From positions 1 through 30,749 of IMG/VR virus record IMGVR_UViG_3300011115_000524: 30,749 nt of DNA, one strand, 5' to 3'. The position numbers and the translations under genes are program-made. Shown here piece after piece: positions 3,048 through 24,234 of this stretch (position 1 is its first letter; every line of letters starts with the position of its first letter). The notes under the pieces were generated by a model, which saw only the letters and a program-made list of their open reading frames with translations, did not search any database and had not been told where the DNA came from. This stretch comes from a virus.

Positions 3048-4493
3048 ATGGAGATTAACTTTTGGGATTCTTTTTTTGGAGTCAATTCAGGACAACAAAA
3101 CAGATTTATAAATCAATTTAACCGCCTTAGACCAATACAAAATCAAGTGTGGGGGGTTAAAAACGCAATATGGATTGATACTAATAACGCTTGGGAATGG
3201 TTTTTGACAATTCCTGAGTTCAGAGCTGTAATTGATAAGCGCGCGTCAATGATGAGTTCAAATATTCCTAAGTTATACGATAAAAATAACGAAGAAATAA
3301 CGGAGCATTGGTTCTTAGACATGGTTAAGCATCCTAATCCTGTTCAAAGTTGGTCAGATATTGTTTATTCATTATCCGTTAATGATGCTCTTTATTCAAA
3401 TGCATTCGGTTATTGCCCATTAAGAGCATTGAATCAACGTAATTTATTCGTCCCATTGCCTTCAAATAAGATTCAAATCATGACAAGTGGTAAAACGCTT
3501 AAACAAATGGATATGAACGGTCTTGTTGATGGGTATAAATTCGAATATGACGATAATAAACTCGAAACATTACCGATTGAGGATGTTATTTATTTGACTA
3601 CAACGGATGGAATGAATATCATTAAGCCAACAAGCCGAATTGATGCATTAAAATATCCATTAAGTAACATCAAAGCAAGTTATCACAAGCGAAATGTATT
3701 GCTTGAAAATATAGGGGCAATAGGTATTTTATCGGCTCAAAATAGTGATATTGGTGGAGCTATTCCAATGACTCCTGAAGAAAAAAGAGAGATACAAAAG
3801 GATTGGTTTAACCGTTCAAAAGACGAAATAATCATTACAGAAAGCCAAGTTAATTGGCAATCGATGAGTTATCCAACACGTGATTTGATGTTATTTGAAG
3901 AGCTTAACGCTGACAAAATGGCTATCATTGACGCATACGGAATGAATGCAAATCTATTCTCAAGTGAAAAAGGTAGTACATTCAGCAATGTTAAAGACTC
4001 AATTCGGATGGTTTATACGGACACAATCATCCCTGAGACACAACAGATGTACGATTCAATTTGTCATCAGTTAGGATTGGATAAACAAGGGATCCGTATA
4101 GAGGCTTGTTTTGACCATTTACCGGTACTACAAGACGATGAGTTAGCAGAATATCAAGCATTGACTGAGAAGGTAACAGCTTATAATCTATTATTGACTG
4201 ACGGAGTAATCACTAAAGAGCAATATGCGATGGAATTCGGCTATGAATTAGAGCCAATTGATAAGGCACAAGCGCAACAAAACGGATTGATCCAGGCACA
4301 AACAGAATTGAGAGGAACTGTCGGAGGATTGAATGGGATAATTGCATTGAATACAGCTGTTGCAATGGGGCAAATGACCAATGAAATCGCAGTTAATACC
4401 TTAGTAAATTACTACGGATATGACCGTATTGTCGCTGAATCAATGATAACGGCAACACCTGAAATACCTATGACACCACCAACAACATTTTAA
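3048..4493 (+). CDS. Phage portal protein (HK97-like)
   Basis: At 481 residues it lies between the large terminase and the prohead protease, the canonical portal place in HK97-type heads. The N-terminal part (NNAWEWFLTIPEFRAVIDKRASMM, read in pieces) and the segment on HPNPVQSWSDI resemble HK97-type portals. The central AYGMNANLFSSEKGSTFSN region corresponds to the conserved portal stretch before the long helices. The C-terminus is Gln/Ala-rich. It should form the dodecameric ring that admits DNA and docks the neck. The portal family is well supported by position and by these segments; the exact subfamily is not certain. Confidence 0.88.
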   Translation: MEINFWDSFFGVNSGQQNRFINQFNRLRPIQNQVWGVKNAIWIDTNNAWEWFLTIPEFRAVIDKRASMMSSNIPKLYDKNNEEITEHWFLDMVKHPNPVQSWSDIVYSLSVNDALYSNAFGYCPLRALNQRNLFVPLPSNKIQIMTSGKTLKQMDMNGLVDGYKFEYDDNKLETLPIEDVIYLTTTDGMNIIKPTSRIDALKYPLSNIKASYHKRNVLLENIGAIGILSAQNSDIGGAIPMTPEEKREIQKDWFNRSKDEIIITESQVNWQSMSYPTRDLMLFEELNADKMAIIDAYGMNANLFSSEKGSTFSNVKDSIRMVYTDTIIPETQQMYDSICHQLGLDKQGIRIEACFDHLPVLQDDELAEYQALTEKVTAYNLLLTDGVITKEQYAMEFGYELEPIDKAQAQQNGLIQAQTELRGTVGGLNGIIALNTAVAMGQMTNEIAVNTLVNYYGYDRIVAESMITATPEIPMTPPTTF

Positions 4494-22768: not shown

Positions 22769-23182
22769 ATGGCACACATTGAAGACGAATTAAAAGCATT
22801 AATGAATTTAACACGAATAAATTATAAAGATGTTATCGATTCAAGCCCGTACACATTTAAAGAATTACAAGAAAAAGGAAGAATTACTGACATAAAAATT
22901 TGGAGACAGTTTTTAGTAAGTTTTGCGAGGTTGCAAGGAATGACTGTCATGAATGCTGGGAGTTTAGTTAATCAAGGACATGTAACTGTTATCCACGCAA
23001 TAAAATGTGTTTATTCTAGGTTAAAATCAAATCAATATCCTGAATATTCAAAAGTACTGGATGCAATAAAATACAATATTGAGGTAAATATTGCCTCAAG
23101 TGAAGACACGAATATTAACGAAATGAATTGTTTAGTTCTAATGGATCACTTAATTTCTAAAAAATATGCAAACATTAATTAA
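22769..23182 (+). CDS. DnaA domain IV-like DNA-binding protein
   Basis: At 137 residues. Residues 62-84 (NAGSLVNQGHVTVIHAIKCV and on) resemble the DnaA signature in which a helix-turn-helix binds DnaA boxes (G-x-x-x-x-x-H-x-T-V-x-H-A). There is no AAA+ domain, so it is a free-standing DNA-binding module. In a phage replication block it could bind the phage origin or act on host DnaA. It overlaps the next gene by 17 bases. Confidence 0.7.
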   Translation: MAHIEDELKALMNLTRINYKDVIDSSPYTFKELQEKGRITDIKIWRQFLVSFARLQGMTVMNAGSLVNQGHVTVIHAIKCVYSRLKSNQYPEYSKVLDAIKYNIEVNIASSEDTNINEMNCLVLMDHLISKKYANIN

Positions 23183-23431: not shown

Positions 23432-23439
23432 TATATTTG
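23432..23439 (+). promoter_or_regulatory. Promoter -7 box ahead of the structured leader
   Basis: TATATTTG fits TAnnTTTG. Transcription would begin near 23444-23446, close to the 5' edge of the first hairpin, so the whole 23443-23546 structure would be the leader of the replisome-organiser mRNA. Confidence 0.6.
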
Positions 23440-23442
23440 CAA

Positions 23443-23546
23443 TATAACGGACAGGTTATAGAAAGAACTTATTAAAACCCTTTTGAATCAGTAGGCTGTC
23501 CCCGAAAGTTCAAAGGGGTTTTGTCATTTAATAATGGACAGATTAT
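23443..23546 (+). ncRNA. Structured leader with matching hairpin loops (kissing-loop candidate)
   Basis: Three hairpins are visible. The first is TATAAC/GTTATA (23443-23448, 23455-23460) with loop GGACAG. The second is a 14-bp stem with one G-U (23474-23487 with 23509-23522), whose 21-base loop contains CTGTCC at 23496-23501. The third is ATAAT/ATTAT (23531-23535, 23542-23546) with the same loop GGACAG, and its 3' arm includes the first two bases of the ATG at 23545. CTGTCC is the exact complement of GGACAG, so the second loop can pair with either the first or third. The second hairpin ends in TTTT, so it may also terminate transcription. Confidence 0.6.
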
Positions 23547-24234
23547 GAATAAACCAATTAAAACAGTAAAACCCTTTTTTAAGGTAAATTTTGAAGACTT
23601 GCAATTTGCAAAGGATTTCTTCGAAAATGAAAAGCATTATATCGAATGGCTTTTTTGTATTTCTGAATATTATCAAGGTAATATTTTAATCCCAAAAACT
23701 AAAATTGTTGCAAAGTATTTCAATAATTACAAAAAGACGATGGATTTTATTATTGATTCTAAATTAAAAGGTAAAGAGGGTGCAATTATAAAGGCTGAAA
23801 AACAACAAGTTAACAACGATACCCTTGAAGGGGTGCTTGAAGGGGGCTTTAAGGAATCCTTACAGCTAATAATAAAGAATAAAGAATTAAATATAAAAGA
23901 TGAACAAACTATTTCACCGACTAAAGTCGATGCATTTGAATTAATTGATTTTGAAAAGTTAGTAAGTTTTATAAATTTAACATTTGGCAGGAGCTTTCAA
24001 GTAGTAAACAAAAAAGTTAAAAACAGTTATAATGCACGAATTAAAGAGGGTTATTCAAAGGACCAAATAACAGATGCAATAAACAACTGTAAAACCAACG
24101 ACTACCATAGAGAACAAAATTATCAATATTGTACACCTGAATTTTTCAGTAGAGCTGAAACCTTAGATAAATATTCAAACGTTACAAAACAAGACAAGAT
24201 TGTTTATGCTTTTCATCCAGTAATATTTGATTGA
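23545..24234 (+). CDS. Replisome organiser-like protein (phage C-terminal domain)
   Basis: At 229 residues from the ATG at 23545; a TTG at 23521 would lie within the stem of the leader hairpin and is less likely. The N-terminus is helical and charged. Residues about 146-212 (YNARIKEGYSKDQITDAINN then YCTPEFFSRAETLDKY) match the conserved C-terminal domain of phage replication proteins (Phg_2220_C type), which bind or load the helicase. It runs straight into the helicase gene with one base of overlap, as expected for an initiator and loader pair. Confidence 0.8.
   Translation: MNKPIKTVKPFFKVNFEDLQFAKDFFENEKHYIEWLFCISEYYQGNILIPKTKIVAKYFNNYKKTMDFIIDSKLKGKEGAIIKAEKQQVNNDTLEGVLEGGFKESLQLIIKNKELNIKDEQTISPTKVDAFELIDFEKLVSFINLTFGRSFQVVNKKVKNSYNARIKEGYSKDQITDAINNCKTNDYHREQNYQYCTPEFFSRAETLDKYSNVTKQDKIVYAFHPVIFD

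Follow-up and report, generated by a model that had tools for sequence, protein, structure and literature searches.

A putative kissing-loop leader RNA switch before replication genes of Bacteroidetes phages

The leader of a replication-type gene in a 30,749-nucleotide stretch of viral DNA (IMG/VR record IMGVR_UViG_3300011115_000524, positions 1 to 30,749; hereafter the window) belongs to a class of leader RNAs in phages that has apparently not been described before. It is best explained, with a probability of roughly 0.55, as an RNA switch that Bacteroidetes phages carry in a 5' leader and in which the loop of a large hairpin (loop b of hairpin H2) would alternate between two copies of its complement, one in the hairpin upstream (a1 in H1, the on state) and one in a small hairpin at the start codon (a2 in H3, the off state). 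For the class as a whole it seems slightly more probable still that the kiss between H1 and H2 is a common input with interchangeable outputs, namely a terminator or, before replication genes, a start-codon copy of a1 that competes for H2, and that phages otherwise almost identical exchange their loop letters completely, with the copies staying matched. Sequence comparison leaves H1, H2, the a1:b helix and the placement of a2 at the start codon well supported as structure.

The leader in the window and its gene

A sequence-only reading of the window had pointed to two GGACAG loops on either side of a CTGTCC loop, at coordinates that proved exact (a1, 23449-23454; b, 23496-23501; a2, 23536-23541). 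Beyond these three, neither strand of the 30.7 kb window contains a GGACAG or CTGTCC, although about 6.5 scattered occurrences would be expected. The features are as follows.

23432-23439, + strand: promoter -7 box, TATATTTG, Bacteroidetes type, by motif match
23443-23460, + strand: hairpin H1, TATAAC[GGACAG]GTTATA, loop a1 at 23449-23454, by RNAfold and stem covariation
23473-23523, + strand: hairpin H2, carrying loop b, by RNAfold and comparison; -19.4 kcal/mol for H2 alone
23496-23501, + strand: b, CUGUCC, apical loop of H2 and complement of a1 and a2, by sequence match and homologues
23531-23546, + strand: hairpin H3, ATAAT[GGACAG]ATTAT, loop a2 at 23536-23541, by framing stem and covariation
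23545-24234, + strand: regulated gene, encoding a 229-aa replication-initiation-like protein, by open reading frame, PHROG 428 and Pfam

The profile of the -7 box over 84 elements of the class is ATTnnTATATTTG, and the distance from its TTTG to the start of a1 is 9-11 nt in 73 of 88 elements. Judged from the position of the box, transcription would start at about 23443-23445, the base of H1. RNAfold, run on the single sequence, predicts each of the three proposed hairpins (H1, the large H2 and a small one close to the ATG), and they are further supported by covariation among elements whose loop sequences are unrelated. The single-sequence z-score of the leader is -1.64, which is insufficient for folding energy to serve as proof, and it is the comparison that carries the case. 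The H1 stem exactly frames its 6-nt loop and covaries in relatives, as GTTC/GAAC, GGGT/ACCC and TACCT/AGGTA. In H2, a 16-bp outer stem (23473-23488 with 23508-23523) encloses the internal motifs AGUA (23490-23493) and CGAA (23503-23506); by its sequence the H2 of the window is a weak terminator-like hairpin with a short U-tract. The third hairpin had been said to cover the AT of the start codon, and it does: the 3' strand of H3, which also covaries, includes the AU of the ATG at 23545-23547. A pairing of the 3' arm of H2 with the repeat TAAAACCCTTTT at 23567 was considered and rejected, the repeat being VKPFF codons and altered in the relative L002, in which H2 is kept. Separately, a four-codon open reading frame (23534-23548, ATG GAC AGA TTA TGA) begins in H3 and stops over the start of the replication gene in an ATGA overlap, which is changed in L002.

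The regulated gene had been taken for a replication gene, and the 229-aa protein indeed matches PHROG 428 (phage replication initiation; E 1.7e-7), with a further match to Pfam Phg_2220_C at E 2.6e-5, below the family cut-off. A helicase/ATPase-like gene follows it, and two genes upstream an open reading frame (22769-23182) weakly matches the DNA-binding domain of the DnaA C-terminus (PF08299, E 0.0047). Relatives of the 229-aa protein are encoded on nine viral contigs. The gene looks modular, since the proteins of the window and of L002 are near-identical over their first ~115 residues and then diverge; L003-L005 share only the C-terminal part. The same holds for the Riemerella phage homologues, which have only the C-terminal domain in common with it and before whose gene no element was seen. 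A search of genome contigs with the replication protein found no homologue.

Loop pairing across the class

Changes in the loops of related phages were looked for among the relatives that share the N-terminal part of the protein, in which the gene start is comparable. In these, the promoter, a1, the b hairpin, a2 and the ATG follow one another in identical order, and the leaders differ in letters with a1, b and a2 still matching, which is the compensatory change that the sequence-only reading had asked for. The letters of a1 are GGACAG in L002, ACACGACA in L006, CATCTCAC in L008 and CACGACC in L009 and L010, and L007 has ACAACCA as a1 and CGACCAC as a2, so that among these homologues the window has its loop letters in common with L002 only. 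Turnover of the letters can be fast relative to the proteins: L006 and L007 have downstream proteins 97% identical and unrelated loop sequences, matched within each phage at a1, b and a2, and among leader pairs with downstream proteins at least 80% identical a1 differs in 14 of 37.

A scanner that requires the promoter, then a1, then a hairpin with the reverse complement of a1 in its loop was applied to 93 viral loci retrieved via the neighbouring helicase. It gave 89 matches, among which a1 takes 43 different sequences, a few of the weaker matches being chance, and it also located members in the Flavobacterium phages FCL-2, FL-1 and FCOV-F2. Shuffled single phage genomes give about 0-1 matches each, and lone weak matches were therefore left out. 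In total there are at least 88 non-redundant elements, each with a promoter, H1 (a1) and a terminator-like H2 whose b is the complement of a1. This promoter-H1-H2 unit is the common core of the class, with a2 and H3 as an add-on found only before replication-type genes. Two further candidates were discarded: a long-hairpin match in L061, which has no open reading frame after it and a hairpin unlike the class, was judged chance, and a search by stem-sequence pattern returned 104 stretches, nearly all unrelated.

When the elements were checked for a ligand core of the riboswitch type, conserved sequence was found to be confined to short internal-loop motifs that differ between subfamilies. The internal loop under b is AGUA/CGAA in fam1, to which the window belongs, UGAA/GGAU in fam2 and GAAAUGCC/GGCUA in fam3, and some others occur. 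Formal pair counts were taken from alignment A5 only, because the MAFFT alignments A3, A4 and A6 displace the loops of some members. In the structural alignment of 11 fam2 members, 98.0% of cells are paired and 21 of 28 pairs have changes on both sides. Double-changed cells number 75, compared with 23.3 after shuffling, and the covariation score reaches 0.754, whereas slid structures give 0.103 at most; the a1:b helix itself is 100% paired, with 6 of its 8 pairs double-changed. Since the scanner had itself demanded a1:b pairing, the pairing was retested with the pattern TTTGN{19,23}ATAGAACYTNAAGRWRTTATT, in which there is no letter of a1 or b. This returned 58 new distinct elements with 14 different a1 sequences, and a1 and b match perfectly over 7-10 bp in all 58 (over at least 8 bp in 57), against about 21% of re-paired controls still matching at 8 or more, common a1 sequences being recurrent.

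The third copy, the U-tract and the proposed switch

If a2 is taken to be any stretch of 6 nt or more that can pair with b, with one G-U tolerated, and that overlaps or lies near an ATG, it occurs in 17 of 88 elements, always overlapping the ATG or at most 5 nt from it, and is missing from the other 71; counting exact copies only, a2 stands at the start codon in 14 of 83. For background, a copy of at least 6 nt of the a1 of another element is found anywhere in the 90 nt downstream in about 1.6% (1.55%). The copy stands before a long replication-type open reading frame in 17/17 and before a small first open reading frame in 0/39 (Fisher 3.6e-6). The longest T run after H2 has a median of 4 in elements with a2 and 7 in those without (Mann-Whitney p 1.5e-6), both p-values treating as independent elements that partly share ancestry; at least 6 T follow H2 in 6/17 and 63/71, respectively. 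Fam1 by itself already contains elements of both kinds. The shorter U-tract of the elements with a2 looks as if one output had replaced another.

In fam1 the H3 stem exactly frames the a2 loop and covaries, as ATTTA[GGGCAG]TAAAT, TTATTTTA[AGGCAG]TAAAATGA and TTTATTTTA[GTGCAG]TAAGATGAG, and in the members with the latter two it takes in the whole start codon. The summed H1 and H3 stems were reached by 0 of 1000 flank shuffles. Several a2 copies outside fam1 have no clear H3.

These stems bear on the idea that a1, b and a2 are sites in DNA, namely iterons or operators for a replication or repressor protein, with incidental hairpins. Short repeated sites beside a replication-initiation gene that vary between phages would be in keeping with it, but the stems of H1, outer H2, inner H2 and H3 all covary as base pairs, b is invariably antisense and invariably in an apical loop, some a2 differences pair only as G-U (L007, L156, L216) and the third copy is missing in 71/88, which makes sites in DNA very improbable.

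In the proposed RNA switch, transcription would begin at H1 and loop b would kiss loop a1 as H2 emerges, a contact expected before a2 exists because H1 and H2 are made first. With b:a1 formed, H3 would be free to melt and the replication protein would be translated; were H1 lost, blocked or outcompeted, b would pair with a2 and the start codon would be locked shut, so that the trigger would be whatever removes or occupies H1. Initiation in Flavobacterium involves no Shine-Dalgarno pairing and needs adenines upstream of a weakly structured start region (PMC9976891). Given this need, b:a2 pairing four to nine nt before the ATG, together with the closing of H3, should repress. The sequence-only reading had proposed that pairing of the middle loop with the first or the third would be mutually exclusive; the alternative complementarity is kept by covariation, and exclusion in the cell, like the assignment of the on state, is what the model would predict from it. 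By analogy with ColIb-P9 repZ, b:a2 pairing may instead activate. The sequence-only reading was right on the anatomy and probably right on the principle of a switch of translation or attenuation, which is here narrowed, for the start-codon part, to the a2/H3 add-on, with the direction of switching a matter of the model.

Start-codon switching cannot be the sole role of a1:b, since a2 is absent from 71/88. In this commoner subtype the a1:b contact falls on a strong intrinsic terminator and would probably set read-through; it is the strong U-tract of these elements that suggests transcription termination as their output. The output is thus probably termination in some elements and start-codon control in others, as far as the sequences tell. 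An effect of a1:b on termination is guesswork, since it is not obvious that the stem of H2 would change when its loop is engaged in a kiss.

Read-through could also come about if the kissing H1-H2 RNA bound RNA polymerase and carried it past terminators, as a put-like element. The class resembles put of HK022 in being a two-hairpin, promoter-proximal RNA that heads phage transcripts; put is made just downstream of an early phage promoter and, while nascent, acts on the elongation complex directly (PMC9378689). In the phage class, however, it is the second hairpin that forms the strong terminator, the primary sequence of the hairpins is not common to the subfamilies, short internal-loop motifs excepted, and a2 would have no role, all of which makes a put-like element improbable. 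HK022 put also differs in working on the E. coli RNA polymerase, and put RNA is not known to have kissing loops or an embedded terminator.

Known systems, carriers and significance

No description of the class was found in open-access papers, preprints excepted. At the gathering score, no family of Rfam 15, C4 and IsrK included, matches the window or the relatives tested, and a search loosened to E up to 5 gave only chance matches elsewhere in the loci. P1/P7 C4, a phage leader RNA from antirepressor or immunity operons, has an internal antisense logic. Gifsy IsrK is another such leader, in an antirepressor/immunity operon (PMC4825925). The fam2-type leader of Tenacibaculum phage Gundel_1 (L315:1900, record ~33899) likewise stands directly before an annotated antirepressor gene, but the class differs from C4 and IsrK in architecture as well as in the lack of a match to the Rfam models.

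The seqA-seqB-seqC leader of satellite phage P4 is the closest known logic: in the leader of the replication genes, sequences complementary to the CI RNA lie on both sides of it and pair with it (PMC4825925). Likewise, in 17/88 elements, the window included, a leader segment is complementary to upstream and downstream sequence before replication genes. Unlike in P4, b lies in the apical loop of a promoter-near, terminator-like hairpin, the contact is made between loops, a2 touches the start codon and the downstream copy is missing in most relatives. In addition, by the single pattern tested (fam2, 84,980 genomes), the carriers do not look like prophages.

Given this likeness, action in trans as a P4-like immunity or feedback RNA has to be weighed, although it is rather unlikely. 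A leader ended or processed at H2 would then build up as a small RNA, and its b would shut off replication genes by pairing with the a1 and a2 in further copies of the transcript, possibly acting against related phages too. This would fit the a-b-a order, which equals seqA-CI-seqC of P4 (PMC4825925), the strong terminator tail on H2 in most elements, the antirepressor gene behind the Gundel_1 element and the lack of shared loop letters when two elements lie in the same phage (a1 6-mer in common in 0 of 11 pairs on one contig, which is suggestive and not by itself significant). On the other hand, b is already matched in cis by the a1 of its own leader, and the fam2 leader pattern, the one searched for, has 0 matches in 84,980 bacterial and archaeal genomes, so that lysogens are not suggested. 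Moreover, pair entropies are at most 1.5 bits for a1:b and up to 2.3 bits for the inner stem of H2; with a1:b less variable than that stem, nothing suggests that an arms race acts on the loop letters, and this favours contact within one molecule.

In leaders of the ColIb-P9 type, translation is switched on by a pseudoknot, which is itself under the control of a separate antisense RNA. For ColIb-P9 repZ (IncI-alpha) and IncL/M repA, the titles of Asano and Mizobuchi 1998 and of Athanasopoulos 1999 (in PMC10724649) point to a hairpin loop that pairs just upstream of the initiator start. The phage leader resembles repZ in that an upstream hairpin loop is complementary to sequence just before the start of the replication gene; it differs from ColIb-P9 and IncL/M in having a second, identical target upstream in cis and a downstream pairing that covers the start codon. 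The element of the window would work like a mixture of the P4 and ColIb-P9 repZ leaders.

Cultured carriers are the Flavobacterium phages FCL-2, FL-1 and those of FCOV type and Tenacibaculum phage Gundel_1. In FL-1 (L132:611-720, record ~3699-3810) a unit of promoter, hairpin and terminator whose loop match is 8 bp long sits in about 1 kb without annotated genes and is possibly a stand-alone small RNA. At five loci (L133:40334, L151:3455, L169:5094, L261:2705, L281:7077) the same kind of leader stands directly before genes that, judged by eye, resemble NUMOD4/HNH homing endonucleases, as if leader and endonuclease travelled together. In fam2 leaders that lack a2 (e.g. L151, L154, L160, L161), a conserved TTTTATGCTTAAAAATT downstream of the terminator begins a very short open reading frame, which extends into the beginning of the first gene, and in L134, L135, L141 and L004/L137, also without a2, a TTTTTGCATTT-like sequence after H2 replaces the pure U-tract.

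The class appears to be a widespread and unlisted type of structured RNA that heads replication operons of Bacteroidetes phages. Little is known of gene regulation in these phages, and their hosts initiate translation without Shine-Dalgarno pairing. Its members in cultured phages (FCL-2 and relatives, FL-1 and Tenacibaculum Gundel_1) make direct testing possible. The loop code is simple, with 6-8 letters, each natural pair being another version of one switch, and together the natural loop pairs might be useful as orthogonal RNA switches.
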